DNA of 64,000 nucleotides from a virus. Below the pieces are notes generated by a model. It was not told where the DNA came from and did not search any database. It saw only the letters and a list, made by a program, of their open reading frames with translations. The stretch covers positions 27,888-91,887 of IMG/VR virus record IMGVR_UViG_3300036781_000821. One strand, written 5' to 3'. The translations under genes and the position numbers were made by a program. Shown one piece after another: positions 16,797 through 61,706 of this stretch. How positions within the stretch are numbered: position 1 is the first letter of the stretch; each line of letters opens with the position of its first letter.

Positions 16797-16882
16797 TTCT
16801 TGCCCCCGTATCGAATCCAGTCCGCAATCGGCCGGACGATGGTGTTCCCGAACCAGATGATTGCGCGATCGAAGATGTTCAT
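16793..16882 (-). CDS. Tiny ORF between terminase subunits, 29 aa
   Basis: ATG at 16882 overlaps the small-terminase stop (ATGA) and its own stop overlaps the large-terminase start. The peptide (MNIFDRAIIWFGNTIVRPIA...) is amphipathic to hydrophobic and ends in basic residues. Double four-base overlaps make it likely to be translated. Function unknown. Confidence 0.5.
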   Translation of the reverse strand: MNIFDRAIIWFGNTIVRPIADWIRYGGKK

Positions 16883-17265
16883 TGCCGCGCTGCCAATCTC
16901 CGGGCTTCCTCGATCCGCGTGAAATAATCGTTCTTCTCGGCGGGCGTGACGACCACTGTGGTGACAGAAATGTTCGGTGTCAGGCCTTTCCACTCAGGCA
17001 GCACGGCCGCAGCGAATCCCATCAGGAACTTGTCCGAGACGTTTGGATCCTTCAATCGCGCGGTAACAATCTCGCGCAGTTGTTCCTCGTACCGCTCCTC
17101 GCATTCCTTAACCTCCTGGGCGAACTCAGTGCAGTTTTCGATCCTGCTTTTGAGCGTCGACGGCGAAACGCCAGCCAAGTCGCAGGCTTCGAGTTTATTC
17201 CTCGATTGGGCGTAGTAATGGAGGAAATCAGCCTCCCATTGTTCAGAAAACTCGCCGTGTGGCAC
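16879..17265 (-). CDS. terS: Terminase small subunit-like protein
   Basis: A 128-aa protein with an N-terminal helix-turn-helix (NKLEACDLAGVSPSTLKSRI), a central helical EECEERYEEQL-type oligomerisation region and a short C-terminal tail. This matches phage small terminases that recognise the packaging site and hand DNA to TerL. Coupled to the terminase region by overlap. Confidence 0.75.
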   Translation of the reverse strand: MPHGEFSEQWEADFLHYYAQSRNKLEACDLAGVSPSTLKSRIENCTEFAQEVKECEERYEEQLREIVTARLKDPNVSDKFLMGFAAAVLPEWKGLTPNISVTTVVVTPAEKNDYFTRIEEARRLAARQ

Positions 17266-17335
17266 GCTGAGAGCAATAACGCACGTCCTAGCGAAGCATC
17301 AACCGGAATCAAGTCGACGGTTTTGGACGAACTGC

Positions 17336-17542
17336 TTAACGTCTCTTACGATTCACGCGCTTTCGCGGTCGAATGCGGAAGTGTGGACGAGCGGCCAGCC
17401 ATGCGCGCGCTTCGTCTTCAGTGGCCTTGCGGTCGGGCATGGGAAAGCCCTGGTGACGCATGGACAGGATGAAATCGCGGCTCTTTGGTTTCTTGCCGCC
17501 GAGCGCAAACGCCAGCTCTTTGATCGAGAGGCGCTCACTCAT
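17336..17542 (-). CDS. Small HTH DNA-binding protein, 68 aa
   Basis: The sequence SIKELAFALGGKKPKSRDFIL then GFPMPDRKATEDEARAWLAARP resembles winged-HTH proteins of the excisionase/Nu1 class, with a basic C-terminal tail. It lies upstream of the small terminase in the same direction and could regulate late genes or assist packaging. Confidence 0.6.
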   Translation of the reverse strand: MSERLSIKELAFALGGKKPKSRDFILSMRHQGFPMPDRKATEDEARAWLAARPHFRIRPRKRVNRKRR

Positions 17543-17768
17543 TCGTTCGAGTGCGCCAGAATTTTATCGGCTGACCATTGGGCTCAGGGAGCGGCGTCGA
17601 CTGAAAGATGCTGTACGATGCGTACCGCAACAATTCGCGCTGGAGAAACGCGCACATCGCAGTTCGTGGCTGTTGATCTCTGCCCCAGAAATGTAAGCGA
17701 GATACAACCCGCCAGATTCGCCACCATAACCACCATGCGTTAGCTCGCACGCTCGCAACCTCGGGCAT
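17535..17768 (-). CDS. Possible small protein, 77 aa
   Basis: Frame from the ATG at 17768 with a weak GAGGG upstream; it ends eight bases inside the next gene. Trp/Arg-rich N-terminus and a plausible C-terminus (NGQPIKFWRTRTNE). A competing frame at 17564-17758 also exists, so this call is tentative. Confidence 0.35.
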   Translation of the reverse strand: MPEVASVRANAWWLWWRIWRVVSRLHFWGRDQQPRTAMCAFLQRELLRYASYSIFQSTPLPEPNGQPIKFWRTRTNE

Positions 17769-18060
17769 GAAGCCCTCGGTAGGCGAGTTTTGCAAATCCG
17801 TCAAGAAGATTTGTGCGTTTGTCGCCACAGGCTTCCCGCACGTCGGTGCTCACATTGAACTCGGCGTTCCAATAGTCGAGCGGGACGAACAAAAAGTCCT
17901 CGTAACGCCAAGGTTCACCGAACTCAACAAGGACATATCCGTGAAGGCCCGGAATGAAGGGGCGTTCAACGATGCACTCTACAGTGTAAATCTGGTGAAG
18001 CTGAGGCACTGGTCCAGGCCAAAGCGGTTGCTGACCACGATAAATATAGACCACTTTCAC
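17740..18060 (-). CDS. Hypothetical protein, 106 aa
   Basis: GTG start at 18060 overlaps the replication-protein stop (GTGA). The protein opens MKVVYIYRGQQ and contains a beta-rich region (GLHGYVLVEFGEPWRYEDFLFVP read in part), possibly a small SH3-like fold. No family recognised. Confidence 0.6.
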   Translation of the reverse strand: MKVVYIYRGQQPLWPGPVPQLHQIYTVECIVERPFIPGLHGYVLVEFGEPWRYEDFLFVPLDYWNAEFNVSTDVREACGDKRTNLLDGFAKLAYRGLHARGCERAS

Positions 18061-18989
18061 GCTGCCCTCGCTTTCTCCACTGAACTCACCAACTTCACGA
18101 TCCGATTTCGCAGCGTGATGTCCGTCATACCACCTCGATTCGCCACGTCATCGCAATACTGGATCATTCCCTGTTCATCGCGAGAGAGGCCGGCAACTTG
18201 AGCCCTCACAGCGTCTTCACCCTCAGCCAACAGCTTTTCCACGATGCCGTAGAGCCGTTTCCACTGCGCTTGTTCTCTCTTCGTGGTTTCAGTACGCGCC
18301 GCATCCGCACGTTCCTTCGCCTTGGCTTTCGCCGCAGGTTGCGGATCTGGCGCGCCCAGGTTGCCTAGCCAGCTCAGCAAGAACGTTCGCGTCATGGGCT
18401 TGCCCGGATACTTGATCTTGGATTTGTTCTCCGCGAGCTGTGCCTCGCGCTCAACTTCCAAATGGCGATAGGCCGGGCTTGCCTTCAGCTCCTTCAGGTA
18501 TTCGGGAGTGACTTGATCGAAGCCGACGCGCGGCGCAGCCGGTTCCTCTCTTCTTCCATTCCGTTCCATTCCATTCCCTTCCATAGGCACTTCGCCGCAG
18601 CGTGGTGCGGTTTCGCCGCATGAAGGTGCGAGATTGTCGGAAGCTGCTGCCTCCGTGTCGAATAGCTCCAGCCAACCGATCTTAAGAAGCCGCGGAATTG
18701 CCTCCTCAAAGACCGCTTCAGAGCCATGCGTCATGCGCGCTAAAGACCCCGCATCATGGGCCACCGCACCCTCCCGCAGGAGAGTGCCGCGCATGTCGCA
18801 CTTGCTTGCGACCTCCACAATCAGCGCCCAAGCGCCGAAGTGGGACATCCCATTCGCGTGGTGCAGTAATTCAGTGAAGCCGTCGCCATCGTGCTTATTG
18901 GGCATCGGAACCCATTCCATGCGTTTCAACTCACGTGTGCGGTTGTTCTCGAAGAGATTGGCCCACTCTCTGACGCGAAGGACTTTCAT
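18057..18989 (-). CDS. Phage replisome-organiser-like protein
   Basis: ATG at 18989 overlaps the DUF1376-HNH stop (ATGA), supporting this start over 19025. The 310-aa protein has an N-terminal winged-helix-like region (residues about 1-110, with REWANLF and a later ARMTHGSEAVFEEAIPRLLKIG HTH-like segment), a low-complexity linker and a basic helical C-terminus. This layout fits DnaD/DnaT-like or phage O-like replication initiators. The family is inferred, not proven. Confidence 0.55.
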   Translation of the reverse strand: MKVLRVREWANLFENNRTRELKRMEWVPMPNKHDGDGFTELLHHANGMSHFGAWALIVEVASKCDMRGTLLREGAVAHDAGSLARMTHGSEAVFEEAIPRLLKIGWLELFDTEAAASDNLAPSCGETAPRCGEVPMEGNGMERNGRREEPAAPRVGFDQVTPEYLKELKASPAYRHLEVEREAQLAENKSKIKYPGKPMTRTFLLSWLGNLGAPDPQPAAKAKAKERADAARTETTKREQAQWKRLYGIVEKLLAEGEDAVRAQVAGLSRDEQGMIQYCDDVANRGGMTDITLRNRIVKLVSSVEKARAA

Positions 18990-19947: not shown

Positions 19948-20739
19948 CTACGATGCTTCCGCCAGCCGCTTCATATCGTCCAACGCCTCTTTGTTGGAGC
20001 AATAGAAGTTTGGGATTTTCTCAATCTTCGGATCGCTCTTGAGGTAGATCAACGCAGCAGCAGCCGGAGTTCCCATGCAAAACTCCATCGCCCGACCCGC
20101 ATCACCAGCAAGATGAACAACCCATCCCGCCTGGCAATGCGTCGTGTCGCAGGAGTGCCAGTTGTTCATGTCCAGCGCGTCGGGTTTGCACGCGGCCTCA
20201 TATACCGCTTTGTGAATGTCTTTAATGAACGGCACGCCATTGAGGTCGGCACCGCTCAGGACGGCATCGCGCAGGTCGGCACCGCGCAGGACGGCATCGC
20301 GCAGGACGGCACCGCTCAGGACGGCATCGCGCAGGTCGGCACCGCGCAGGACGGCATCGCGCAGGTCGGCACCGCGCAGGTCGGCACCGCGCAGGACGGC
20401 ATCGCGCAGGACGGCATCGCGCAGGTCGGCACCGCGCAGGTCGGCACCGCGCAGGACGGCATCGCGCAGGACGGCATCGCTCAGGACGGCACCGCGCAGG
20501 TCGGCATCGCTCAGGACGGCATCGCGCAGGACGGCATCGCGCAGGTCGGCACCGCGCAGGTCGGCACCGCGCAGGACGGCATCGCGCAGGTCGGCACCGC
20601 GCAGGACGGCATCGCGCAGGACGGCACCGCTCAGGACGGCATCGCTCTTAACAGCAGCTTCCAACGCCAGTTTCCAACTATCCGTTTCAATGGAGAAAAG
20701 CACGCTCCCCGTCCAACGACTCTTGATTTCAAACTTCAT
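19948..20739 (-). CDS. Pentapeptide-repeat protein
   Basis: 263 aa. After an N-terminal region of about 35 residues come about 27 consecutive five-residue units of the type A(D/V)L(R/S)(D/G), which form a right-handed quadrilateral beta-helix. A C-terminal globular part (about 95 residues, with HSCDTTHCQAGWVVHLAGDAG) follows. Some such proteins mimic DNA and bind gyrase; others are scaffolds. Units with Val in place of Asp/Asn are unusual. The underlying DNA is built from almost identical 15-base units (separate entry). Confidence 0.85.
   Translation of the reverse strand: MKFEIKSRWTGSVLFSIETDSWKLALEAAVKSDAVLSGAVLRDAVLRGADLRDAVLRGADLRGADLRDAVLRDAVLSDADLRGAVLSDAVLRDAVLRGADLRGADLRDAVLRDAVLRGADLRGADLRDAVLRGADLRDAVLSGAVLRDAVLRGADLRDAVLSGADLNGVPFIKDIHKAVYEAACKPDALDMNNWHSCDTTHCQAGWVVHLAGDAGRAMEFCMGTPAAAALIYLKSDPKIEKIPNFYCSNKEALDDMKRLAEAS
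20239..20645 (-). repeat. Near-perfect 15-bp tandem array
   Basis: About 27 head-to-tail 15-bp units, essentially two versions on the plus strand (GGTCGGCACCGCGCA and GGACGGCATCGCGCA) with occasional GCTCA endings. They encode the pentapeptide units. The low divergence points to recent expansion by slippage or recombination. Because 15 is a multiple of three, all frames stay open, creating long spurious ORFs on both strands. Confidence 0.95.
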
Positions 20740-20927
20740 TTTTTCCTTGGGTTTGTGACCCTCGAAGCCAAGGCACAGGCGAACGCTCGATGACTGATGA
20801 TTGTGAAGGCAGCAGAAGAAAGAACGCTGCCCATGCCTTGGCCGCGAGAGTCTGGATTAACTGCCTTCACGAGGCCGACCATAAAGGCCAGCGTGAGCGT
20901 GTCAACACAATTTTTCGGATTCGGCAT
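20736..20927 (-). CDS. Possible small protein, 63 aa
   Basis: Its stop overlaps the pentapeptide-gene ATG (ATGA). The product is weakly hydrophobic in the middle (LTLAFMVGLVKAV). No family recognised; supported only by the overlap and orientation. Confidence 0.4.
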   Translation of the reverse strand: MPNPKNCVDTLTLAFMVGLVKAVNPDSRGQGMGSVLSSAAFTIISHRAFACALASRVTNPRKK

Positions 20928-21144
20928 CCATTCGAAACCCGAACAGGAGCAGATTCTGTAGTCGCTGTGGTGAGAGCGTAGCCATCTTGAACGGCGGCTC
21001 CAGTTGGGTCTCAGCGCAGGGATCTTCGTTCCAGCTCAGAACCCCAGCCGCGAAATCGTTCCAACGCCTCATCCAGTCCAGCCGCGCTTGGAGCATGGAG
21101 GGGAGATGTGGGTGTTTTAGTCGCCGAAGATTCTTGTTGCGCAT
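20902..21144 (-). CDS. Possible first gene of the minus-strand operon, 80 aa
   Basis: Basic N-terminus (MRNKNLRRLKHPHLP) followed by a helical RLDWMRRWNDFAAGVLSW segment. Overlaps the next gene by 26 bases. It would be the first minus-strand gene after the divergent region at 21.15-21.36 kb. No family recognised. Confidence 0.4.
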   Translation of the reverse strand: MRNKNLRRLKHPHLPSMLQARLDWMRRWNDFAAGVLSWNEDPCAETQLEPPFKMATLSPQRLQNLLLFGFRMDAESEKLC

Positions 21145-21360
21145 TTGTAGCGGGGTTGGCGACGACGGGACCGGAATAGGTAGAAGAGAATGGCGAACGG
21201 GCCGAACATGATCACGTGCCCGAGCCTGACCAGGCGACCGAAATGGTCAAGAACAAAAGTGCGTTAGAATGTATGGTTTGACAAGCAACTCAGGCTAACC
21301 CGGCGCAAGGTTTTCGATGGCGCTGACGATTGATGGAAAGGCTCGTTTCGCACCTATCGA

Positions 21361-22512
21361 ATGGCGACTGTCACAAATCCGCTGCCCTCCGGCTTCCAGC
21401 CGCCGCCCGCTGTTCTCGCGCCGAATTGGGCGGGAAGCGCGTTAAAGGCCGAAAGCACGTTCCACCAGCTCTCGCCATACATCGGAAAACTCAAGTCCTC
21501 CATCGCCGGATCGTTGATTGAACAGTTCACGCAACCGTCAGATGTGGTATACGATCCGTTCTCGGGAAGTGGCACGGTTGCGCTCGAAGCGTGGATTGCC
21601 GGCCGCCACATCATCGCCAACGATCTAAGCCCATACGCGGCGATCCTCACGCGCGCAAAACTTTTTCCCTACGATTCGCTTGAAGACGCGCTCGACGACA
21701 TGGAGGATCTTGAGGACTTCGCCGCAGCCGTGGCCGATAGCCTCGACCTTCGCACCGTTCCCCGATGGGTGCGCGAGTTTTTCCATACCCGAACCCTTCG
21801 CGAAACTCTCGGGTGGACTTACGTACTCAGGCAACGGCGCCGCTGGTTTCTGTTGGCATCCCTCATGGGCATCTTGCACCACCAGAGACCGGGCTTTCTA
21901 TCATTCCCGAGCAGCCACACCGTGCCCTATTTGCGGAAGAAGGCTTTCCCGCCCGCGAAGTTTCCCGATCTCTACGAATACCGCTCGCTGGCAGACCGCT
22001 TCGAGGCCAAGATTGAACGTGCCTTTTCCCGTGTTCCCGATCTGGACAGCGGAATTAACCGCGCATGCTTCCAGACATCGGCGCATCTCCTTACGCCCGC
22101 GCAGAAGGTGGATGCCATTATCACGAGCCCGCCGTACATGCGGCAGCTCGATTACGGCCGCGACAACCGCCTCCGACTTTGGTTCCTGGGTGTTCCCGAC
22201 TCCCGCGCGCTCGATCACGAGATTTCGCCGCGCAAGGACGCTTTCCTGAAGCTCATGGCGCGTTGCTTCAAGAAGTGGAAGTCGATCTTGAAGCCCGATC
22301 GCTATTGCATCCTCGTCGTGGGCGACGGCAGCAGCGAGTTAAAAGATGCCAATCTTCCCGTACTCATCTCCCAGATCGCGCAGAAGGAAGGGTTCGTCCA
22401 CGTCCTCGACCACACTGAAGCCATACCGAACGAGCGCCGGGTCCGCCGCGGACTGACGGGCAGCACGTCGGAAACAATCGTCATCCTTCGCAACGCATCG
22501 CGCAGTACATAG
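21361..22512 (+). CDS. DNA methyltransferase (N6-adenine/N4-cytosine type) of a three-gene cassette
   Basis: 383 aa. Motif I, DPFSGSGTV, is at residues 65-73 (S-adenosylmethionine binding) and motif IV, TSPPY, at 255-259 (catalysis), in I-to-IV order, with a long central insertion. It transfers a methyl group to an exocyclic amino group in DNA. The start is the only ATG after an in-frame TGA just upstream. Ten bases separate it from the DUF262 gene. It stands on the opposite strand to the surrounding phage genes. Together with the two genes downstream it suggests a self-protecting defence module. Confidence 0.85.
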   Translation: MATVTNPLPSGFQPPPAVLAPNWAGSALKAESTFHQLSPYIGKLKSSIAGSLIEQFTQPSDVVYDPFSGSGTVALEAWIAGRHIIANDLSPYAAILTRAKLFPYDSLEDALDDMEDLEDFAAAVADSLDLRTVPRWVREFFHTRTLRETLGWTYVLRQRRRWFLLASLMGILHHQRPGFLSFPSSHTVPYLRKKAFPPAKFPDLYEYRSLADRFEAKIERAFSRVPDLDSGINRACFQTSAHLLTPAQKVDAIITSPPYMRQLDYGRDNRLRLWFLGVPDSRALDHEISPRKDAFLKLMARCFKKWKSILKPDRYCILVVGDGSSELKDANLPVLISQIAQKEGFVHVLDHTEAIPNERRVRRGLTGSTSETIVILRNASRST

Positions 22513-35005: not shown

Positions 35006-35445
35006 GTGACCAGCATGAGGCAGCTTGGAAAGAGCGTCAAATTTGGGCTTTTAGGGGATCTGGAGGTAAATCCAGGATAGTGGGCCTCCCCCTATCAGAC
35101 GAGCTACTGAGAAGAGAAACATCTACCCCTAAGCGCTTCGCGCTTGGGAAAACCGCGTTTGCAGGGGCGCGCCAGGACCAGGCTACTCCAGAGGCGCATG
35201 GTATACTGGACTTGAGCTTAGGCTCACGAAAAAAAAACTTCAAAACACAAACTCAAAACCTACACACTTCACAAACTTAAAAACTACACACAAAATTAAA
35301 CTCCAAAAAAAACTTACTCTTTAAAAAACTTCTTCTGCTTTTGCTTTTTGCTGATTTTGGGCTCACCGGCTGGAGCCACCGTTTGAAGAGATGCACCTTG
35401 GAGTAGTGTAGGGACAATCTTCCTGACGGCCGGGTAGGAGATTGT
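35006..35445. other. Candidate oriT / regulatory region with hairpins and a G-free tract
   Basis: No convincing gene. A hairpin at 35128-35148 (CCTAAGCGC, TTC, GCGCTTGGG; one T-G pair) and a second at 35213-35226 (TGAGC, TTAG, GCTCA) precede 108 bases without any G (35229-35336), mostly A with C. It lies directly upstream of the relaxase gene, where MobF oriT sites usually are. Strong strand asymmetry plus inverted repeats fit an origin of transfer; a promoter region is the alternative. Confidence 0.45.
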
Positions 35446-35631: not shown

Positions 35632-35640
35632 AATCAGGCC

Positions 35641-35961
35641 ATGACCGTAGCCGAACTCCGCGAGGCCCTTGCCGGGTATCCCGACGACGCGCCGCTTCAG
35701 ATCCACATGGAGCGATTGCCGGACGACAACGAAGAAGCGTTCGTCGTGAACGTCCAACCGAATTATGCGGGCTGGAGCGAGCGCGAGCATAAGCCCCACG
35801 TCGTGCTGTACGGCGAGCAATTCCCAAAGGACTTCATCGAGACGACCCGCGACCGGGTTGTGGAACGTGCAAAACAGTTCAGCAAATGGGATTGGCCTTA
35901 CGGGATGTGGAACTGGTGGGAAGCGAAACAGTGGAAGCGGACGTTTGGGCGAGGACGTTAA
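35641..35961 (+). CDS. Hypothetical small acidic/aromatic protein, 106 aa
   Basis: N-terminus MTVAELREALAGYPDDAPLQI is typical of small phage/plasmid proteins that fold as an alpha/beta unit (VAELREALxxYPDDxPV pattern). The C-terminus is Trp-rich (WDWPYGMWNWWEAKQW). Function unknown. Last gene of block 1. Confidence 0.65.
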   Translation: MTVAELREALAGYPDDAPLQIHMERLPDDNEEAFVVNVQPNYAGWSEREHKPHVVLYGEQFPKDFIETTRDRVVERAKQFSKWDWPYGMWNWWEAKQWKRTFGRGR

Positions 35962-36047
35962 GGCGTGCTCGATTTGTGCTCGAAGTAATCCGCGCCGAAC
36001 GGCACGGGGCTGACTTGCGGGATTCGCAATTGCTAGAACGATGCCAC

Positions 36048-36073
36048 TGGAAACGCTAAATTCTGTGTTTCCA
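36048..36073. repeat. Inverted repeat beside the tRNA fragment
   Basis: Nine-base arms (TGGAAACGC and GTGTTTCCA, one G-T pair) around an 8-base loop, ending 13 bases before the tRNA-Gly fragment. It could be a terminator or an integrase arm/core site next to the attachment sequence. Confidence 0.5.
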
Positions 36074-36086
36074 ATTTACCGTCGTC

Positions 36087-36131
36087 TTCCCAAGCTGGAC
36101 GTCGCCGGTTCGACCCCGGTCTCCCGCTCCA
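36087..36131 (+). tRNA. 3' fragment of tRNA-Gly(CCC): attachment-site remnant
   Basis: The bases fit a tRNA from position 32 onward: loop TTCCCAA with anticodon CCC (36089-36091), 3' anticodon strand GCTGG, variable loop ACGTC, T arm GCCGG-TTCGACC-CCGGT, acceptor strand CTCCCGC, discriminator T and CCA. The sequence just upstream cannot pair to make the 5' half (CCAGC is needed). A break at the anticodon loop is a common crossover point for tRNA-targeting integrases. By convention the integrated element lies 5' of such a fragment. Confidence 0.75.
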
Positions 36132-36228
36132 ACATCTTCTTTTGCTAGTTGTTGTTAGGCGCAATCTTCGCGCCGCTCTTTTTCCCTCGTGACTCCGCAA
36201 GACTCCAATCGCGCGGTACCCTCGAATT

Positions 36229-37047
36229 GTGGACGCTGCGAAGCCGGTCTCGGAGGTCTTGTTCGAGTCGTACCTTTCCTCGCTCGGTTTGCCGTGGGAG
36301 TACGAGCCAGAGTTCGACGGGAAGCGCCCGGACTACTTGCTCTCGTCGGCTGCTGGTCCGTTCGTCGTGGAGGTTGAGGAGCTTGTCGATCCCGACCCGT
36401 TGCCGAGCGGCGGGTATTCTCCGACGGACGCGGTGCGTGAAGCATTGCGTCGTGGCAAGAAGCAGCTGCGCGGGTGCAAGCACTTGCCGACCGGGATTGT
36501 GGTGTTCAGCGAGTCGTTCTACCGTGGCGTGACGCCCGAGACTGCTGCGTCGGCGGCATTCGGTCCGGGGTTCCAGGATGCGCGACGGCATGACCTCATC
36601 GATCCTTCCGCTCCCGCGTTCCGTTTCCCGTCGCGATACGCTTGCCCGCCGAGCGTGCCCAAGCTTGCGAACCCATTTCTCTCGCGCACAGACAACAAGT
36701 CATTGAGCGCCGTCATCGTTTTGGCCCGGTATGCGCTCAACGACTTCCACCTCGCCGTGTGGCGAGAGCTTGCGGCACGACAGGCACGCGGTGAGCAGAT
36801 AGCGCCGGGTGCGAGCCTCGCGGTTGCTGCCGAGCTCCAGCACTCCGTCCCCTTGACGTACCGGTACGAGAACACGATCCGTGTCGTCGTCTTGGAGAAC
36901 CCGCACGCGAACCTCGCGTTTCCCGACGTGTTCCGTGGTCCGTTCGACCAGCGCTGGACGTGGGAGGATGGCTGGTGCACGCCGACCTGGATCGGCGCGA
37001 CGGCGCACGAATGCTATGCGAGCGGCGTCCCCTTCCACCTGCTCTAA
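36229..37047 (+). CDS. Putative PD-(D/E)XK-like protein, 272 aa
   Basis: GTG start. The N-terminal region PEFDGKRPDYLL followed by GPFVVEVEEL has the spacing of a restriction-endonuclease-like core (PD...ExE rather than ExK), so catalysis is uncertain. The C-terminal region (TRYRYEN-like to FRGPFDQRWTWEDGWCTPTW) is beta-rich and not recognised. Unlike its neighbours it has no clear TATA box before the start. Close to other nuclease genes, so a defence role is possible. Confidence 0.55.
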   Translation: MDAAKPVSEVLFESYLSSLGLPWEYEPEFDGKRPDYLLSSAAGPFVVEVEELVDPDPLPSGGYSPTDAVREALRRGKKQLRGCKHLPTGIVVFSESFYRGVTPETAASAAFGPGFQDARRHDLIDPSAPAFRFPSRYACPPSVPKLANPFLSRTDNKSLSAVIVLARYALNDFHLAVWRELAARQARGEQIAPGASLAVAAELQHSVPLTYRYENTIRVVVLENPHANLAFPDVFRGPFDQRWTWEDGWCTPTWIGATAHECYASGVPFHLL

Positions 37048-37165
37048 CCTGCGACCAGCGCGCCGAGGTGTTCCGCGATCTCGCCCAGGGTCCTGATGCT
37101 GCCGGGTGTTCGCCCGGTCCGGTCGAGGTGGAGGGTCTTGATGCCGAGCGCTCGTGGAATGTCGT
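37044..37165 (-). pseudogene. 3' remnant of a HAD-hydrolase-like gene
   Basis: Minus-strand reading gives HDHDIPRALGIKTLHLDRTG, then TPGSIRTLGEIAEHL and a stop, which matches the C-terminal end of HAD-superfamily hydrolases (D-x2-DI-x-A-x-x-xGhxTh). The 5' part is missing: an in-frame stop lies just upstream. Its last part contains the direct repeat that recurs beside the integrase at 39.9 kb. Confidence 0.6.
37077..37112. repeat. Direct repeat, copy 1 (candidate att core)
   Basis: 36 bp: GATCTCGC, five bases, then a 23-bp block GTCCTGATGCTGCCGGGTGT + TCG. The same arrangement occurs at 39869-39904 with the 23-bp block identical. Lies inside the HAD gene remnant. Confidence 0.75.
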
Positions 37166-37220
37166 GGTCGTGGCGCTAATCGTTCTCGACGTTGAGGAGT
37201 TGTGCAGGCGGGAGGAAAAG

Positions 37221-37228
37221 TTTTTAAC
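37221..37228 (+). promoter_or_regulatory. Archaeal-type TATA box (TTTTTAAC)
   Basis: Centred about 27 bp before the ATG of the EVE-nuclease gene at 37252, which lacks a convincing Shine-Dalgarno; this fits a leaderless archaeal transcript and supports that start. Confidence 0.65.
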
Positions 37229-37251
37229 TGCGGTTCGGGCCGTGCGTGGGG

Positions 37252-38088
37252 ATGACGCGCGCTTGGCTTTCTATCACGACCCTCGAGAATTGGCGCGCGT
37301 GCCAAGCGAGTATGACTTGGGGCGTCAGGGAGAGTGGCGTCTACATGGCCCAGCAGGTCTGGCAGGCTAGCGTAGGCGATAGGCTTTTCGTGTATGTGAC
37401 AAAGAATGGACTGGTTGGCTACGTTGATATCGAATCGGATGTCTTCACGAGCAATGACAGAATTTGGAATGACGACATCTATCCTGTTCGTATCAGATTT
37501 CAAGTCGGTAAGGTCCTTGATTCCCGTAGCGTGATTCCTTTCTCGGAGTTGAAGGGGAAGATCCGCAACGGCGAATCCCACAGTATCATTGCCGATGGAG
37601 CACACTTGTATGGAAAGTCGATGATCCCAATCTCGACAGCCGATGCCGAGCTGCTCTTCAATCTGGTGGAGCGAGGTTTGCCCGCGCCGGGTTGGGAACC
37701 TCCCGAGCAGGTTCCCGCGAAACCACGCGGCGGTGGGCCGATACTCGAAGCGAATCTGGCGAACATCCTTGAGGCGCGTCCGGATGATCTGGAACCAGGG
37801 CTGACCTTGGTGGGGAGAGAGTTTGTTACAGATGTTGGACGGATTGATCTTCTCTACACGGACCGTCAAGGAAACCTTGTCGTCGTGGAACTCAAACGCG
37901 GAAAGCCCACGAATAGCGTGATTGACCAGATCGCGCGGTACATGGGCTGGGTGAAGACGCGATATGCAAAAGAAGATCAAGTCGTCAGGGGTATCATCGT
38001 GGTCGCGAAGAAAGACTTGGCGATTGAATACGCTGCCCACGCGATCCCAAACCTGAGCGTCAGGGAATTTTCTCTCGATATCAAGTAG
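37252..38088 (+). CDS. EVE-domain protein fused to NucS-like PD-(D/E)XK nuclease
   Basis: 278 aa. Residues about 1-120 form an EVE (PUA-like) domain: RAWLSITTLENWR, WGVRE, SVGDRLFVYVTKNGLVGYV, then YPVRIRFQ. The C-terminal domain has the NucS/DUF91-type active site GRIDLLYTDRQGNLVVVELKRGK (D, ExK) and later QIARYMGWVK. EVE domains read modified bases; the nuclease would cut such DNA, giving a type IV restriction-like enzyme. The start at 37252 is set by the TATA box. Confidence 0.8.
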   Translation: MTRAWLSITTLENWRACQASMTWGVRESGVYMAQQVWQASVGDRLFVYVTKNGLVGYVDIESDVFTSNDRIWNDDIYPVRIRFQVGKVLDSRSVIPFSELKGKIRNGESHSIIADGAHLYGKSMIPISTADAELLFNLVERGLPAPGWEPPEQVPAKPRGGGPILEANLANILEARPDDLEPGLTLVGREFVTDVGRIDLLYTDRQGNLVVVELKRGKPTNSVIDQIARYMGWVKTRYAKEDQVVRGIIVVAKKDLAIEYAAHAIPNLSVREFSLDIK

Positions 38089-39370: not shown

Positions 39371-39482
39371 CTGACGGTTCCTCCGGTGGCTGAGGTCTTT
39401 CAGCTCCCCCGCTATTGTAACGATTGGTCACGCTTAAATCTGTTTTGCAAGTGGCGGTCCTCGTCTCGGGGTTGAGAAACCA

Positions 39483-39488
39483 TATAAA
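39483..39488 (+). promoter_or_regulatory. Archaeal-type TATA box (TATAAA)
   Basis: Centred about 26 bp upstream of the second ATG (39511) of the small membrane-protein gene; no Shine-Dalgarno. Selects 39511 rather than 39505 as the start. Confidence 0.65.
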
Positions 39489-39510
39489 GCCGTACTCGTA
39501 AGCTATGGTG

Positions 39511-39904: not shown

Positions 39905-41011
39905 TTATTGGAGTGGTTCCTGTTTGGCGAGTGCGGTGGTGAGGTGGTCGATGGCTTCCTGTTGCCGTTTGATGCCGACTTTGTTGTAGACGTTTGTGCT
40001 GACGTCGACGGTGTGCCCGCATTGTGCTGCGACGATGGTTGCGTCCGCGCCGTTCGCGTTTAGCAGTGTGACGGCGGTGCGCCGGAGTGCTTGGAAGGTG
40101 ACGCCGTTGAGCTTGAGTTTGTCGAGTGTTGGTTTGAGGTAGCGTCGCCAGTAGTTCCCGTGCGATACGGGCTTGTTGCCGGGTTCGTTCGGGAAGACCC
40201 AGTTGTCCTCTTTGGCGTCGGGCGTTGTCTCGCGCCAGGCGGTGAAGTCTTCGCGGATGCTCGTGCTGATGGCGGCGGTGCGTACGCTGTGATGCGTCTT
40301 TGGGGTTTGGATGATGCCGCGGTAGATGCCGCGCGTGATGTGCAGCCCGTCGGGTTGGAGGTCGTGCCATTGGAGGCCGAGGATCTCGCCGGGGCGTAGC
40401 CCGCTGATGCCTGCGAGGCTGATGACTAGCTTCTCCCGGAGGGGGAGGGCTGCGAGGAGGGTGCGGAGTTCATCGAGGGACAAGACGCGTTTGTCTCGTT
40501 GATGGTTGCGTGTTGGCGCGTGCAGGAGTTCCGCAGGGTTGCGTTGCAGGAGTCCGTCGTTGACCGCCATGCGAAATATTTGTCGTAGGTCCCACCGGAG
40601 GTGTCCGACCGTGCTCGTGCTAAGCCCGGCGCTGGCTTTCCGGTCGAGGAAGTCCTGGAGGATGGTCCGGTTGAACGACGAGAGCGGTCGGTTCCCCTGC
40701 TCCTTGAGGAGGTGGTGGTCCACGCGGTCCTTCGTGGTCATCGCGGTGCTCGGTTTCCATTTGCGCTCGTACCAGGGGAAGACGACGTGTCGCGTGAACC
40801 CTTGGAGGCTGTACTCGACGAGGCCACGCGCTTCGTTCACGGGCTGTACAAGTTTGGTGAGCTCGGCTTCTGCGTCGGCCTTGGTCATCGTGGCGCAGTT
40901 CCCGAGTTTCTTCGAGCGGTGGTGACCGTCCTCCCACCATGCCCCGAGCCATGTCCAGACGCCCCCGCTCTTGCGCTTCCGTAGGCTCCCGTGTTGTGCT
41001 CTCGCGCTCAT
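39905..41011 (-). CDS. int: Tyrosine site-specific integrase
   Basis: 368 aa from the ATG at 41011, which overlaps the excisionase stop. Domains: N-terminal beta-rich AP2-like DNA-binding region (WTWLGAWWEDGHHRSKKLG), core-binding helices, then the catalytic domain with Arg in GISGLRPGEI, the second Arg in FQALRRTAV (the usual HxxR His is replaced by Gln), His in CGHTVD and the Tyr nucleophile in STNVYNKV. The style resembles bacterial (Acidobacteria-like) integrases although it ends an otherwise archaeal-looking operon. An extended frame to 41896 is spurious. Confidence 0.9.
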   Translation of the reverse strand: MSARAQHGSLRKRKSGGVWTWLGAWWEDGHHRSKKLGNCATMTKADAEAELTKLVQPVNEARGLVEYSLQGFTRHVVFPWYERKWKPSTAMTTKDRVDHHLLKEQGNRPLSSFNRTILQDFLDRKASAGLSTSTVGHLRWDLRQIFRMAVNDGLLQRNPAELLHAPTRNHQRDKRVLSLDELRTLLAALPLREKLVISLAGISGLRPGEILGLQWHDLQPDGLHITRGIYRGIIQTPKTHHSVRTAAISTSIREDFTAWRETTPDAKEDNWVFPNEPGNKPVSHGNYWRRYLKPTLDKLKLNGVTFQALRRTAVTLLNANGADATIVAAQCGHTVDVSTNVYNKVGIKRQQEAIDHLTTALAKQEPLQ

Positions 41012-41226
41012 GTGTGTGCTGCACGAACAACAATGCCTTGATCCTGTCGGGAAAGCCAATCGAAAAGCGTCTCGCGACGCACTAACACGCGTCGTCCGAG
41101 ACGTACTGCTGGGAGTCGTTCTGCGCTTGTGATGTGACCGTTGATGAGTTTGCTCACGTGGGCTTTGGAGACGCGCAGGAGTGTTGCGACTTCGTGGAGC
41201 GTGAGGAGGTTTGGCGTTTCGTTCAT
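41008..41226 (-). CDS. xis: Excisionase-like HTH protein
   Basis: 72 aa. MerR/excisionase-type wHTH: LLTLHEVATLLRVSKAHVSKLI, then LPAVRLGRRVLVRRETLFDWL. Overlaps both the ATPase stop and the integrase start by four bases, so it is produced with the integrase and probably sets excision direction. Confidence 0.85.
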   Translation of the reverse strand: MNETPNLLTLHEVATLLRVSKAHVSKLINGHITSAERLPAVRLGRRVLVRRETLFDWLSRQDQGIVVRAAHT

Positions 41227-43367: not shown

Positions 43368-43675
43368 GGTTTGCACCTCGGTGGGGTTCCTGCGCAGTCC
43401 CGGCACAGGACGGTTTGGCAGGGTTCGCAGAAACTCGTTGCTTGCGGCGCGATGAGCGCGTGGCATTGCGTGCAGGTCGCGAGCTCGTGTGGTTTCACCC
43501 TGCGGCCGTCTGCGGTCTGGTACTGGTGTTCGCTGACGATGAGCGCGCGCTCGCCGGTCGCTGGGTCGACCGTCGTGGTTTCTGTTGCAACCGGCAGGAC
43601 GAGCACCGTCCCGTCGGGCCGGTGGATGTCCAGGCGTGTCCGGTGCTCTTGCTCGACGATCAGGTCGCGGCTCAT
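43292..43675 (-). CDS. Zinc-ribbon protein, 127 aa
   Basis: Beta-rich N-terminal half, then Cys motifs CTQCHAL, FCEPCQTVLCRDCAG and RCKPCKK, compatible with two zinc sites, and a basic tail. Lies in the transfer operon with four-base overlap upstream. Possibly couples DNA to the ATPase; function not known. Confidence 0.65.
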   Translation of the reverse strand: MSRDLIVEQEHRTRLDIHRPDGTVLVLPVATETTTVDPATGERALIVSEHQYQTADGRRVKPHELATCTQCHALIAPQATSFCEPCQTVLCRDCAGTPPRCKPCKKNEQRKNRITLVKRAIAWTLRL

Positions 43676-44007
43676 GCTCCTCCCTTCGGTGTGGTCGTTC
43701 CGTTGGCTGTTTCTTCCGTGACGAGCCGTCGCGCGAGCGATCCGGTGATGATCCCGAGTCCTTCCGGGATGAGGAAGCGCGCGAAGCTCTCGGCGTTGCT
43801 CGGTGTCCCGAGGAGGATGATGCCGCCCACGATCAGGAGCACCAGCGCTTTCCGGTCGTTCAGCGCTGCTGCGGTGCTCGCCGCGAAGATGCTAAACGCG
43901 CCGGGTTGGAGGAGACGCATCGTGAAGTCCACGCCCGCCGGTCTCGGGAGGAGATTGGCGGCGTTCATGAGTGCGGTGAAGATGATGGCGTGCGCGAGCG
44001 GCTTCAT
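43672..44007 (-). CDS. Small membrane protein, 111 aa
   Basis: Three hydrophobic stretches (AIIFTALMNAANLL, FSIFAASTAAAL, ALVLLIVGGIILLG) with short charged loops. Size and place recall VirB2/VirB3-like components of transfer machines, without sequence proof. ATGA overlaps on both sides. Confidence 0.6.
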   Translation of the reverse strand: MKPLAHAIIFTALMNAANLLPRPAGVDFTMRLLQPGAFSIFAASTAAALNDRKALVLLIVGGIILLGTPSNAESFARFLIPEGLGIITGSLARRLVTEETANGTTTPKGGA

Positions 44008-44816
44008 GCTGCTTCGCCGCCGCTCGGGAGTTGTGGCTGCTGTTGTTGGTAGATCGCGCGGAGTTGTTCGCGTTGGTCGATGAGGCGGAAGTCCTCGTGG
44101 CTTTTCGCGTCGATGCCTTCCCGGAGCGCGGCGATCCGGAGTTGGACGTCGTGGTGCTCGACCGTGAGCGTGGACGTGGTCTGTTCGAGCTCGTGCGTCT
44201 TCGTGAGCTGTTCGTCATACTTCGCAGCAGGCCAGCCGGGCAATAAGGTGACGAAGGCGAGAATGAGCGCTCCGGCGATGTCAATGGCGAGGTTGTTCGC
44301 TTCCGTCGTCCGGTTCGCGAGGCGTAGCACGATGAGGCTCGCCCCCGTCAGCAGGAAAATAGCGAGCAGAACGGGTGTGTGCCAGTCCCACTCGCTCCGT
44401 GGTTTGCGGAGGTTCTTGTACAAGCTGTCGATGATGTAGAACGATCCCGTCGTGTACAGGACCGCCGTGCTGAGAGCCGTGAAGAGCGGATAGCCAAGCT
44501 CCGTCGTGAAGATGTACGTGATCGTCCCGACCTCAAAACCGTAGAGTGCCGCGCGCTTCGCCTGCAAGAACAGCTTGCGCGGCTGCAACGCGAGGTCGCG
44601 CTGATACGTCGTGACCTGGATGCGCAACGAGCTCTCCATGCTCTCGGTCACGTAGAGTTCGCTCTGCGCTTTGTCGTCGGGAACGCGGAGGCGGTCCGGG
44701 AGACCCAGACCCACGCTCGTCAAGAAACTCTCCGGGTCGGGTGCGGTCGCGTTCTTGCCGGCGTCCGCGGCCTGTCGACGAAGACGCCAATCCTGTACGG
44801 GCTGTAAGAAACTCAT
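44004..44816 (-). CDS. Membrane protein with C-terminal coiled coil, 270 aa
   Basis: Start at 44816 chosen by overlap with the upstream stop. Four hydrophobic helices between residues about 95 and 200 (for example YPLFTALSTAVLYTTGSFYII, TPVLLAIFLLTGASLIVL), then a Gln/Glu-rich coil (YDEQLTKTHELEQTTSTL) to a Gln-rich end. Could be a membrane scaffold of the transfer apparatus. Confidence 0.6.
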   Translation of the reverse strand: MSFLQPVQDWRLRRQAADAGKNATAPDPESFLTSVGLGLPDRLRVPDDKAQSELYVTESMESSLRIQVTTYQRDLALQPRKLFLQAKRAALYGFEVGTITYIFTTELGYPLFTALSTAVLYTTGSFYIIDSLYKNLRKPRSEWDWHTPVLLAIFLLTGASLIVLRLANRTTEANNLAIDIAGALILAFVTLLPGWPAAKYDEQLTKTHELEQTTSTLTVEHHDVQLRIAALREGIDAKSHEDFRLIDQREQLRAIYQQQQPQLPSGGEAA

Positions 44817-45655
44817 TTCGCTTGCTCCTTGTTGAGAAGTGCTGTTGCTTGCTCGCTCGTGAGAGTTCCCGTGGCGCTGGTGAACGTCGCGCCACTTTCC
44901 CTCACGGTCCTTGTCCAGAGGTCGAAGACTCTGTCGTGATGCGCAATCGTCGCCGGGCAACGCCGGTTGGCGACGGGGCGCAGTCCGGTTTGGATCGCGA
45001 TGATGGTGACGCTGCGCAACGATGCCGGGAGGAAGAGGCGAGCGCTCGTCAGGCGGGCCTTCCACGACGACGGGACGGGGTCGTCGCATTCGAGATCGCC
45101 GAGCTCAGCATGTTCGAGCAGGTCCGAGACGAGCATGATGACGCGACGCGATTCACCCGGTGCTGACTCTTGCGCAACGCGGACGACGCTGCTGAAGATC
45201 GGCGAGCGTTTGGGTGTGACGATGGCGAGGCTGTCGAAGGCCGCGAGGATGCGCCGCACTTCATTAGCTTCGTGGGCTTGGACTGCCGAGCGGCCCGACG
45301 CTTTCGGCGAAGTGATGACGATAGTTGCAGCGATGCTCGTACGGCTCGCGTCATCACCGACCAACCAGAACCGGACGATGCTTCCCGAATGCCCGCTGAC
45401 GACGGACGCGATGGCCGCAACGCTCGGACGGACCAGCGTCTTATCACTGCCGGGGCTGCCGGGACTCGCGTCGAGGAGGATATCGAGAACCTCAATGGAT
45501 GGCGGTGGCGTAGCAGTGAAGACTTGGATCTCTCGTCGGACAGCGGTCATGCTAGCGATGACGTGTTCTTTGCCTGCTTGCTCGGCGTCGGTCGGCGAAC
45601 ACGCGGTGAGCGACAGGGAGAGCGCGACGAGTACAGATGGGACTGCGTGCGTCAT
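44813..45655 (-). CDS. Secreted lipoprotein-like protein with possible vWA fold
   Basis: 280 aa from ATG 45655. N-terminal signal VPSVLVALSLSLTAC ends in a lipobox-like Cys. Downstream, VLDILLDASPGSPGS is close to a MIDAS DxSxS loop, and VIMLVSDLLEHA resembles the fourth vWA strand and acid. Export by a lipoprotein-type signal occurs in bacteria and in some archaea. Possible cell-surface contact protein; the vWA call is tentative. Confidence 0.55.
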   Translation of the reverse strand: MTHAVPSVLVALSLSLTACSPTDAEQAGKEHVIASMTAVRREIQVFTATPPPSIEVLDILLDASPGSPGSDKTLVRPSVAAIASVVSGHSGSIVRFWLVGDDASRTSIAATIVITSPKASGRSAVQAHEANEVRRILAAFDSLAIVTPKRSPIFSSVVRVAQESAPGESRRVIMLVSDLLEHAELGDLECDDPVPSSWKARLTSARLFLPASLRSVTIIAIQTGLRPVANRRCPATIAHHDRVFDLWTRTVRESGATFTSATGTLTSEQATALLNKEQAK

Positions 45656-47444: not shown

Positions 47445-47468
47445 CGTCCCTTGGGAGTGCAATACTCG

Positions 47469-47477
47469 TTAATAAAA
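47469..47477. promoter_or_regulatory. Shared bidirectional TATA box (TTAATAAAA)
   Basis: Centre about 28 bp from the ATG at 47444 (minus strand) and about 29 bp from the ATG at 47502 (plus strand). One A/T block appears to serve both divergent genes. Confidence 0.65.
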
Positions 47478-47501
47478 CGCACTGGACGACCGCCCCGAAA
47501 C

Positions 47502-49898: not shown

Positions 49899-49906
49899 CT
49901 TAAAAA
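49899..49906 (-). promoter_or_regulatory. Archaeal-type TATA box (TTTTTAAG)
   Basis: Centred 28 bp before the ATG of the 52-aa membrane protein, with no Shine-Dalgarno. Confidence 0.65.
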
Positions 49907-49948
49907 TGTTGTCGCTGGCTAACCGAGCGCACGCTTAGGTGATAGGGT

Positions 49949-50761: not shown

Positions 50762-50784
50762 TATCCAGCATTGGCGCTGCCCGG

Positions 50785-50790
50785 TTTATA
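50785..50790 (-). promoter_or_regulatory. Archaeal-type TATA box (TATAAA)
   Basis: Centre about 26 bp upstream of the ATG at 50761; no Shine-Dalgarno present. Confidence 0.7.
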
Positions 50791-50864
50791 GCTTTTTTGC
50801 CATCAACGAATGTGCAGCTGCCTTAACGGTGAAGGAAACGCGCTGCTCATGGTAGTTCGCATGC

Positions 50865-52670: not shown

Positions 52671-52693
52671 GAGCTGTGTAGAAAAGGTGCGTT

Positions 52694-52702
52694 GATATAA
52701 AG
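52694..52702 (-). promoter_or_regulatory. Archaeal-type TATA box (CTTTATATC)
   Basis: Centre 28 bp before the ATG at 52670; no Shine-Dalgarno. Confidence 0.7.
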
Positions 52703-54084: not shown

Positions 54085-55353
54085 CTACTTGGTCGTGGCG
54101 AGGACTCGGAGCGCTTCGCCGAGTCCGGCGTCATGGATTTGGGTGGCTGCTTCGTCGAGGAGTCCTTTTTCCGCAAGGAGTTTGCAGAGTTGCAAGATGA
54201 CGGCGTTGTTCGTGCTGCGTCCTGCGAGGTCTTGTCGGAGCTTGGCTTCATCGAGGACGGTGTTGCATCGCACGCAGTACGGTGTCGTCGGCTGATTGAG
54301 CATCGTGCATGACGGGCAGGTTCGCGGTGCGAGATCGTCGCGGCGCTGCTCTTGCGGTGCGAGGTGGTTCTCGCGAAGGATGGCGTTGTTTCCGTCGTCG
54401 GCGGTGAGGTGCGCGTAGATCGCGAGCATTCTGCTAGACGGTGCCCAGCCGAAGTACATCTTCGCTTGCTGCTCGTTCATGATGCCGCTCGCGACGCAGT
54501 ACGTTGCCCTGCTGTGACGAAAGAGGTGGGGATAAATGCGTTTTTTGATGCCCGCTGCCTGCACGGTTCTGATGAGCATGGTTCTGAGCGCCTGGTAGCC
54601 GACGTGGCGTGGTTCTGCAGTCCGCTGGTTGTACACCCACAACGGACTATCGGGATCGTCGCGAAAGGGATGCACGGCAAGCCATTGGGTCAGATACGGA
54701 GCGCTACTAATCACGAGCACGTTGCGGTGTCCGGTTTTCCCACACAAGTCAAGGAGATAACCGAATTGGTGCTTCGTCAGGTGCCGGACCTGCATATTGC
54801 CGGGCTCGCCAATTCGTCCGCCTGATTCCCAGAGCGTCGCGATGAGCGCCTTATCCCGCGGATTGTCCGCAGTCTCGATGAGGTGTCCGATCTCTGCTGG
54901 CGTGTAGAGCTCGTGGCGTTCGAGTCGCCGTCGATCTTTCGTCTTCACGCTCGCATTGAGCCAAGACACCATTGCTGGCGGATGCTTCGTGGGAAACTCG
55001 GCGGGCACGAGTACCCACGTCATGAACGTGCGCAAAATGGCGCGATACGTTCCGAGCGTTTCAGCACTATATGCGGGCTGTCGCGCCAAGAGACGCGCGA
55101 TCAACTCCTCCAAGTCTTGTCGAGTCAGCGTGTCAAAGTCTTTTGCGATAACGCGTGCAAAGAGCGTCAGCGCTCCCATGACCCGAATCAACCGCACCTT
55201 GCCGCAGATGCTCTTGACCAGGCACGCGTCGCGATACCCGAAGATGAGATGCCTATTGCGATCGCTGATCTCAGCACGCTCAACAGCGGCTGCTGCCTGG
55301 AGATATTTCCGTCCAAAACCGTGGATATCAATACTACGCTCGGACCGTGCCAT
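54085..55353 (-). CDS. Archaeal-type tyrosine recombinase with C-terminal zinc ribbon
   Basis: 422 aa from ATG 55353 (GGGAGG 11 bases upstream). SAM-like N-terminal domain (about 1-160), catalytic domain with Arg in LWESGGRIGEP, HxxR in HLFRHSRAT and Tyr nucleophile in MLAIYAHLT. Residues about 350-375 carry a zinc ribbon, TCPSCTMLN...PYCVRCNTVLDE, a common appendage in archaeal integrases, then a helical tail. It may integrate this element or act as a resolvase; no obvious tRNA lies beside it. Confidence 0.9.
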   Translation of the reverse strand: MARSERSIDIHGFGRKYLQAAAAVERAEISDRNRHLIFGYRDACLVKSICGKVRLIRVMGALTLFARVIAKDFDTLTRQDLEELIARLLARQPAYSAETLGTYRAILRTFMTWVLVPAEFPTKHPPAMVSWLNASVKTKDRRRLERHELYTPAEIGHLIETADNPRDKALIATLWESGGRIGEPGNMQVRHLTKHQFGYLLDLCGKTGHRNVLVISSAPYLTQWLAVHPFRDDPDSPLWVYNQRTAEPRHVGYQALRTMLIRTVQAAGIKKRIYPHLFRHSRATYCVASGIMNEQQAKMYFGWAPSSRMLAIYAHLTADDGNNAILRENHLAPQEQRRDDLAPRTCPSCTMLNQPTTPYCVRCNTVLDEAKLRQDLAGRSTNNAVILQLCKLLAEKGLLDEAATQIHDAGLGEALRVLATTK

Positions 55354-55628: not shown

Positions 55629-55709
55629 TTACGGTTCTTCGTCGTCGGTCTGCGTCTCGTAGAGTTCTTGGTAGCGCTCGTAGAGTCGCTTGATCCATTC
55701 GTCTGTCAT
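55629..55709 (-). CDS. Tiny acidic ORF, 26 aa
   Basis: ATG at 55709 overlaps the methyltransferase stop (ATGA). The peptide MTDEWIKRLYERYQELYE is a single amphipathic helix with an acidic end. Likely translated with the methyltransferase. Confidence 0.4.
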   Translation of the reverse strand: MTDEWIKRLYERYQELYETQTDDEEP

Positions 55710-56446
55710 CGTTTGTTCTTCCCTGGTGTTTGTTTCGGTGGTATTGCTTTCGGTGGGTGTTCCGTCTCAGGTTTTTGGTTCGATGGGTGTTCCAGTTCAG
55801 GTGGTGCCTCTTTGGGCACTTCCGTCGTCGCCGGGTCGTTGGGTGCGTTTTCGGCTGGGTGCTTGGGTGCCAGTCGCGCCACTGCGAAGTCGGCATACTC
55901 CTTGTTGCTTTCGATGAGCAGGTAGTGGCGCTTGAGCTGCTGTGCGGCTACTCCCGTGGTGCCGGTTCCGGCGAAGGGGTCGAGGATGGTATCTCCCTCC
56001 TGGGTGTAGTCCTCAATGAGGTACCGCAGCAGACGCACGGGTTTCTGCGTCGGGTGCTGCTTGTAGTCTTTCAGCGTCCGGTAGTCCAGGATGGGGACGG
56101 TCCAGACTCGGTGCGCTCTGCGTCGGTAGTCTCTGCTCCAGCAGATCACGAGCTCGTACGCGTGCGCGCTCCTCGCGTCTGGCTTGGCCCAAACGCTTCT
56201 GCTGACTTCGAACCAACCCGGCGGCGGCAGCGGCGGCGATGCGAGTGGCGTCCAGAAAAAGACGATGTGCTTGCGCGCTTTCTTCGCTGCCAAGTACAGC
56301 CCGGCGATCCCGTCAATCAGGGAATCACTGAAGAGGCCGCTCCCGTTCGGATACGGCGGGTCCGTGATCACGGCGTCCACGCTCAAGTCGGGCATGGCGG
56401 CGAGCATCGGCAGGCTATCGTGGTGCAGTACGGTATCGAGTTCCAT
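55706..56446 (-). CDS. Beta-class DNA methyltransferase
   Basis: 246 aa from ATG 56446, with GGAGG six bases upstream. Motif IV ITDPPYPNG near residue 30 comes before motif I ILDPFAGTGTTGVAA near residue 170, the beta-class order; HPTQKP precedes motif I. It methylates adenine-N6 or cytosine-N4. The last 60 residues are a Pro/Glu/Lys-rich tail. No matching restriction enzyme is adjacent, so it may be an orphan protecting the element. Confidence 0.88.
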   Translation of the reverse strand: MELDTVLHHDSLPMLAAMPDLSVDAVITDPPYPNGSGLFSDSLIDGIAGLYLAAKKARKHIVFFWTPLASPPLPPPGWFEVSRSVWAKPDARSAHAYELVICWSRDYRRRAHRVWTVPILDYRTLKDYKQHPTQKPVRLLRYLIEDYTQEGDTILDPFAGTGTTGVAAQQLKRHYLLIESNKEYADFAVARLAPKHPAENAPNDPATTEVPKEAPPELEHPSNQKPETEHPPKAIPPKQTPGKNKR

Positions 56447-56550
56447 AATGTCCTCCGTTTTGGGGCGTTCTCCCAAACGAAGGACACGGCGTCTCTGGCG
56501 GCTCTTGGAGGGCGCGCGACACGCCCGCACTGGACATTGTCGGCGGCGCG

Positions 56551-56557
56551 ATATAAG
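56551..56557 (+). promoter_or_regulatory. Archaeal-type TATA box (ATATAAG) below the recurrent motif
   Basis: Centre 27 bp before the ATG at 56581. A GC-rich motif related to those at 60.9 and 61.9 kb (CCCGCACTGG...GGCGGCG) lies at about 56523-56549. Confidence 0.7.
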
Positions 56558-57579: not shown

Positions 57580-57959
57580 GCATCGACGACCTCCTCGGAA
57601 AACTGCACGAGGACCGCGCGGGCACCATCGAAGACCAGCTCACCGCGCTCGAACGCGAAATCGCCAAGCGACGACTCGTGAGCGCGGAGACCGTCGTGAC
57701 GCTCTTTGGACAGATCGGCGAATTGCGCGCGCAAATCCTCAAGCTCCTCCCGGAGCACGAGTTCGCACCCGACCCCAACCGCGCCATCCGCGAGCCACTC
57801 GAGCGCGAGCGACGCGAGCTCGAACGTGAACTCCAAGAAGAATTGCGGGACCGTTGGCGCGACCAGCAAGAGCTCCGTCGCGAGCACCGCCAGCTCACGC
57901 GCGAACACACGGAGGAAGCGCAGCGGTACGAACGACACACGAGCAGCTACGACGGGTGA
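57576..57959 (+). CDS. Charged coiled-coil protein, 127 aa
   Basis: Nearly entirely helical and Glu/Arg/Leu-rich; residues about 70-118 form a long coiled coil (ERERRELERELQEELRDRWR). Five bases lie before the HerA-like gene. Likely an adaptor or oligomerisation partner of the ATPase. Confidence 0.7.
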   Translation: MSIDDLLGKLHEDRAGTIEDQLTALEREIAKRRLVSAETVVTLFGQIGELRAQILKLLPEHEFAPDPNRAIREPLERERRELERELQEELRDRWRDQQELRREHRQLTREHTEEAQRYERHTSSYDG

Positions 57960-61676: not shown

Positions 61677-61696
61677 ACAATCCGCGTATAGCTTTC

Positions 61697-61706
61697 TATA
61701 TATAAA
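61697..61706 (-). promoter_or_regulatory. Archaeal-type TATA box (TTTATATATA)
   Basis: Centre 26 bp before the DUF5343 ATG; the strongest TATA match in the window and no Shine-Dalgarno. Confidence 0.75.

Follow-up and report, generated by a model that had tools for sequence, protein, structure and literature searches.

Actinomycete integrative and conjugative elements (AICEs) integrate at tRNA genes and carry a TraB-type double-stranded DNA translocase, a hexameric-ATPase-like protein ending in a winged-helix domain. Exchange of genes between archaea and bacteria is in most cases deduced from gene trees, long after it took place. Upstream of start codons, TA signals are found at ~30 bp in archaea and, in leaderless bacterial genes, at ~12 bp (PMC3160421), and archaeal TATA boxes are centred at −26/−27 (PMC8553660). 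Here we analyse a 64,000-nucleotide stretch (the window, bases 27888–91887 of the 91,887-base IMG/VR record IMGVR_UViG_3300036781_000821) in which a conventional tailed prophage is followed by a second integrative element, termed E, and in which the boxes of the E family occupy the archaeal leaderless position and not the bacterial −12. Prophage and E lie in tandem where a single tRNA-Gly(CCC) gene of a soil acidobacterium ends (3' end), and on balance we lean towards an explanation in which E represents a rare family of bacterial integrative elements with archaeal ancestry or a cross-domain lifestyle. The window is laid out as follows.

1–36085, no strand assigned: tailed prophage, right ~36 kb; the whole, ~43.7 kb, is contig 20323–64020, with ~7.6 kb left of the window
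36086–36133, plus strand: attR, 48 bp from the 3' part of tRNA-Gly(CCC), matching the 3' half of the intact gene without mismatch
36134–64000, no strand assigned: element E, the second integrative element, at the same tRNA-Gly and truncated by the contig end

The backbone of E combines integration genes with two translocase-type ATPases, a second recombinase of archaeal type and a predicted regulator.

39905–41011, minus strand: E's tyrosine integrase, of the tRNA-Gly class and with its 3' end towards the tRNA (Pfam Phage_integrase)
41008–41226, minus strand: excisionase (HTH_17/TIGR01764), overlapping the int and ATPase genes, 52% identical to the gene beside int in the tRNA-Gly locus L008
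41223–43367, minus strand: first HerA/type IV coupling protein (T4CP)-like ATPase, with homologues in relatives
43672–45655, minus strand: two apparent membrane proteins together with 44813–45655, with homologues in G373:C96, G579:C6 and G613
54085–55353, minus strand: second tyrosine recombinase, XerA-like, with a C-terminal zinc ribbon (CPSC..CVRC) of archaeal type
55706–56446, minus strand: N6/N4 DNA methyltransferase (Pfam), a backbone gene, 52–58% identical to element copies
56581–57579, plus strand: predicted winged helix-turn-helix and Lrp/AsnC-like (RAM) regulator, opening the second-ATPase operon behind a TATA-like box, with orthologues in three elements
57576–57959, plus strand: small charged protein, a backbone gene kept in relatives
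57965–59917, plus strand: second HerA/VirB4/TrwB-like ATPase, its C-terminal part holding winged-helix and nuclease-like regions, 54–56% identical to three element copies

The predicted model of the second ATPase matches HerA, DndH, VirB4 and TrwB, and the AlphaFold model of the regulator (pLDDT 73.5) gave weak-to-moderate PDB matches to NirDL and Lrp-type regulators. The family is rare, the first ATPase being matched in 2 of 396 sampled Acidobacteriota genomes. One relative, 38 kb long, lies inside a 617-kb contig (G579:C6), with tRNA-Met at one end (attL) and a 27-bp repeat of the tRNA 3' end at the other (attR); a second, of 62–66% GC, ends at tRNA-Sec on a 108-kb contig whose chromosomal part beyond it has ~74% GC (G373:C96), and the flanking genes of both host chromosomes are bacterial-looking (e.g., BepA-like, PstC-like). 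A third, partial and small copy stands beside a tRNA-Ser, where it probably integrated (G579:C14). E and the tRNA-Met element agree in the order ATPase, 44813, zinc-ribbon integrase, methyltransferase, 56581, 57576, 57965 and in orientation to the tRNA, and the tRNA-Sec element holds the same backbone genes with parts rearranged; identities to the relatives reach 54–56% for 57965, 48–55% for the zinc-ribbon integrase and 52–58% for the methyltransferase. Since the tRNA-adjacent integrases of homologous elements at other tRNAs show 24–25% identity to that of E, in partial alignments, while the backbone is conserved, integrase and target site appear, judging from these comparisons, to have been exchanged together. 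Elsewhere, scans of viral contigs and alignments with E proteins found no relatives, a plasmid search with the first ATPase gave no match, and searches with 55706 and 51207 returned distant matches only, of no use for placing E. Contig G469:C21 has one ATPase homologue, and G613 and G738 have distant homologues of 57965 only; the G613 copies lie on short contigs (L055, L056), and in L056 two divergent genes are preceded by a palindromic TTCTTTATAAG box.

Nine TATA-like boxes illustrate the promoter signal of E.

37216–37229, plus strand: AAAAGTTTTTAACT, start 37252
39481–39489, plus strand: CATATAAAG, preceded by GAGAAAC, start 39511
47468–47478, shared and divergent: GTTAATAAAAC, starts 47444 (minus) and 47502 (plus)
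49899–49907, minus strand: ATTTTTAAG, start 49874
50784–50791, minus strand: CTATAAAC, preceded by AAAAAAG, start 50761
52693–52702, minus strand: CTTTATATCA, start 52670
56550–56557, plus strand: GATATAAG, start 56581, with similarly placed boxes at the orthologues in G579:C6 and G579:C14
60183–60191, plus strand: GTAATAAAC, start 60214 (SRAP)
61694–61709, minus strand: ACATTTATATATAGAA, start 61676 (DUF5343)

For the statistics, start codons were set with a simple script that took no account of promoters, first genes only were taken from the four elements (~20 of them in E), a fixed AT-box definition was used for counts, and the prophage, the left flank, host chromosomes and the G469 contig, which showed no box signal, served as controls. 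An unsupervised motif search returned a meaningless motif and was set aside, and a box-like site that G613:C139 has in front of one gene was left out of the counts. AT boxes in the bin −30 to −26 amounted to 16/36 in the four elements versus 1/27 in the controls (p=0.0004), and with E removed 8 of 53 genes were boxed in the relatives versus 2 of 98 in controls (p=0.004). AT content of E in this bin is 0.69, versus about 0.34–0.47 in most other bins (circular-shift p=0.0002); the peak recurs in the tRNA-Met (p=0.002) and tRNA-Sec (p=0.027) elements, is not significant in the small tRNA-Ser element (p=0.37), and is absent from the prophage (p=0.57), the left flank (p=0.72) and, likewise, the host chromosomes, so that the shift of expression signals at the junction proposed by the first-pass annotation holds for the boxes. 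Of the 13 boxed starts which that annotation had named, 12 have a heptamer with at least 6/7 A/T centred at −33 to −25, the site at 61962 being weaker ('cctataagc'), and 12 indeed lack a Shine-Dalgarno (SD) sequence. Its description of the left side as SD-led is poorly borne out, SD sequences, by the criterion used here, preceding only 6 of 20 first genes in the prophage part of the window and the same number, again of 20, in the right block. Within the elements, SD and box tend to exclude one another (1 of 20 box genes versus 23 of 54 boxless genes, p=0.002). Boxes are found at orthologous genes across elements, namely 56581 with its orthologues in the tRNA-Met and tRNA-Ser copies, and the pair 34076 of G579:C6 and 11319 of C96, and the sequence around them otherwise looks diverged. 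A TATA box ~26–30 bp upstream of an SD-less start is the position expected of an archaeal core promoter, and the peak does not coincide with the bacterial leaderless TAnnnT ~12 bp upstream.

A second tie to archaea is the zinc-ribbon integrase, for which the best NCBIfam match is XerA_Arch and the closest sequences outside the family are those of Geoglobus and Archaeoglobus pleolipoviruses (34% identity to that of Geoglobus, 2e-57) and haloarchaeal plasmids. In a tree, the element copies and archaeal sequences split from 11 bacterial sequences with support of 100/99. The tetranucleotide profile of E correlates with those of the tRNA-Met and tRNA-Sec elements at 0.77, compared with 0.71 between its own halves, and the element-family signature differs from that of the hosts (0.43–0.58); such a common signature across hosts is consistent with a shared reservoir of unspecified kind. 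Box geometry, archaeal-type integrase and shared DNA signature together suggest archaea as the origin of the family or as further hosts of it. The earlier idea that an element had crossed domains is thus retained with respect to the integrase and the promoter geometry and abandoned as to an archaeal replicon, since E is an integrative element with bacterial-type Int/Xis and collinear relatives in acidobacterial chromosomes. As a working model, Int and Xis would insert E at tRNA-Gly and excise it, and the HerA/VirB4-like ATPases probably move DNA, while the predicted Lrp-like regulator 56581 (a moderate-confidence model with weak matches) heads the second-ATPase operon. This operon belongs to a subset of E genes placed behind an AT box centred at ~−27 from the start codon and devoid of SD or −35 sequences, archaeal-style promoters that within a bacterium may be remnants, may be read at a low level, or may be kept for use in an archaeal host. 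What the data show directly are the att sites, the tandem order, the collinear relatives in bacterial chromosomes, the box statistics and the lack of TBP/TFB; that the boxes are of archaeal origin, that DNA is transferred and which genes are active in which host is what we infer.

Several observations weigh against archaeal ancestry or a cross-domain lifestyle. TBP and TFB are absent from the contig and from six acidobacterial genomes, five of them with E-related genes, in a search that detected four archaeal controls, and therefore the boxes cannot act as archaeal promoters in those hosts. A box precedes only about a fifth of the element first genes, and none is found at int, xis or the methyltransferase. 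The A-richness expected of a TFB recognition element (BRE) is weak, with an A frequency of 0.31 in the 4 nt upstream of the box versus 0.14–0.20 further up. The integrase tree holds few bacterial sequences from outside Acidobacteriota, no archaeal copy of the E backbone was found in a sampling outside of which archaeal genomes lay, the left end of E is 3.8 kb from its integrase, and the distal att lies beyond the contig.

The main rival accepts the same tandem elements and takes the boxes to be purely bacterial, either −10 elements or activator/operator sites, read by the host RNA polymerase to yield SD-less mRNAs with leaders of ~17 nt, archaeal history being limited to one borrowed integrase. 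It is a possibility to be taken seriously, if not the likelier one: the hosts lack TBP/TFB, Int, Xis and the ATPases have bacterial relatives, and the regulator 56581, which heads an operon and has a box in its own promoter, is a candidate box binder. However, no −35 signal was seen at a spacing of 15–19 bp from the boxes (2.90 versus 2.76±0.18), the sequences (TATAAA/TATAAG/TTTAA) are unlike TAnnnT, the fixed spacing to the start codon and the absence of SD would be left unexplained, and the signal is missing from prophage, flank and host chromosomes. A bolder extension of the favoured explanation, in which the family would consist of bi-domain elements moving between archaea and acidobacteria, with integration genes read in bacteria and the archaeal-TATA gene set only after transfer to an archaeon, seems to us doubtful. 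Were archaeal ancestry or a cross-domain lifestyle to prove true, an element of a bacterial chromosome with position-conserved archaeal-style promoters would make the transfer itself testable, by host-specific transcription.

A further explanation, raised along with the junction itself, is that assembly fused an archaeal replicon with a bacterial prophage through the shared tRNA segment. Codon usage, strand skew and tetranucleotide profile do shift at the junction together with the TATA signal, the SD signal being unchanged. Compared to prophage and left flank, C-ending codons of E rise up to 0.58 and T-ending codons fall to 0.02–0.05 (minus strand); between 37000 and 56000 the plus strand is also G- and T-rich regardless of gene orientation, a strong skew not matched in extent by the related elements. 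The junction is an attachment site all the same, and no domain boundary. Its tRNA-Gly(CCC) fragment, correctly recognized at first pass, is single-copy within the window and identical to contig 20323–20370, part of an intact tRNA-Gly(CCC) predicted at contig 20294–20368, left of the window; it is the attR of the prophage, with attL (contig 20294–20370) on the same contig at the intact tRNA. The exact 75-nt tRNA found 15 matches among the genomes searched, all in Acidobacteriota and mostly in Bryobacterales. Position 73 of tRNA-Gly is U in bacteria and A in archaea, and since the fragment ends in TCCA it is not archaeal. E itself, with Int/Xis on its tRNA-proximal side 3.8 kb from the att fragment, carries an integrase that falls in the tRNA-Gly integrase clade (43% identity to the integrase beside tRNA-Gly in L008, 41% to that of the prophage). 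An archaeal genomic neighbourhood is contradicted both by the bacterial tRNA-Gly fragment beside E and by its homologues within acidobacterial chromosomes. In several of the 15 loci (L005–L019) a tyrosine integrase lies directly downstream of the tRNA, which makes tRNA-Gly(CCC) a recurrent insertion site in Bryobacterales, and in a separate IMG/VR contig the attR of another prophage at the same tRNA runs straight into the end of an integrase of the tRNA-Gly class, which shows that the present contig is no isolated case of tandem insertion. A misjoin of two strains, too, would require E to stand next to a bacterial tRNA-Gly fragment, and we regard an assembly chimera as very improbable. Least credible of all is that the box signal reflects chance or start-codon choice in a small gene set of ~20 first genes with script-called starts, since the script was blind to promoters and the signal recurs in independent elements and at orthologous genes.

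A conventional tailed prophage, adjoining the tRNA, makes up the left part of the window. It is bounded by 48-bp direct repeats, the left copy completing the tRNA-Gly, and its tyrosine integrase (contig 20424–21509, opposite strand) lies 54 bp past the attL tRNA copy. Virion genes are enclosed by the repeats, as in temperate tailed prophages; matches there include major head protein, tail collar/fibre and amidase (PHROGs), accompanied by ParB-like, exonuclease and lysis genes. A nearly G-free, A/C-rich stretch (35232–35330) separates a helicase gene from the prophage end. Beyond the prophage, contig 1–20293 flanks the insertion, carries genes of conjugation and replication type, and may itself be a mobile element; replication-initiator-like and conjugation-coupling-type proteins are encoded there beside the tRNA (L003:1774–3648 and 15514–18621). 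In L013 (Bryobacterales) the T4CP gene is conserved at 72% over 1042 aa, with its neighbour at 65%, upstream of the same tRNA as here. On the other side, between attR and the E integrase, a predicted nuclease with a NucS C-terminal domain (37252–38088) sits as cargo behind a TATA-like box. ThiF, Prok-E2 and AbiEii matches in a Pfam scan of the pooled element proteins suggest putative defence cargo in one or other of the elements. The region from 36.1 to 64 kb should not be annotated as phage.

No description of an element such as E was found in the literature searched, and its features are divided among several known systems. Int/Xis, a tRNA 3'-end att, tandem arrays and translocase-type ATPases are shared with bacterial tRNA-targeting integrative elements and genomic islands, of the integrative and conjugative or integrative and mobilizable (ICE/IME) type. 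Unlike these, E has an archaeal-type second integrase, SD-less TATA-like boxes at −27 on a subset of genes and its own DNA signature, and no relaxase was seen among the 25 Pfam families listed, HerA/VirB4/TrwB-like ATPases being present. AICEs resemble E in their hexameric-ATPase-like translocase with a winged-helix C-terminus and in tRNA integration, but the E proteins are of HerA/VirB4 and not FtsK type, number two, and have a nuclease-like C-terminus. The zinc-ribbon XerA-like integrase is similar to those of pleolipoviruses (Geoglobus acetivorans pleomorphic virus 1, ThalV2), with 31–34% identity and the same CxxC..CxxC tail, although no virion genes of that family were recognised in E. 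Finally, while located in bacterial chromosomes of genomes without TBP and TFB, the E boxes resemble archaeal leaderless core promoters (BRE/TATA, centre −26/−27) in position, sequence type and absence of SD (PMC8553660).

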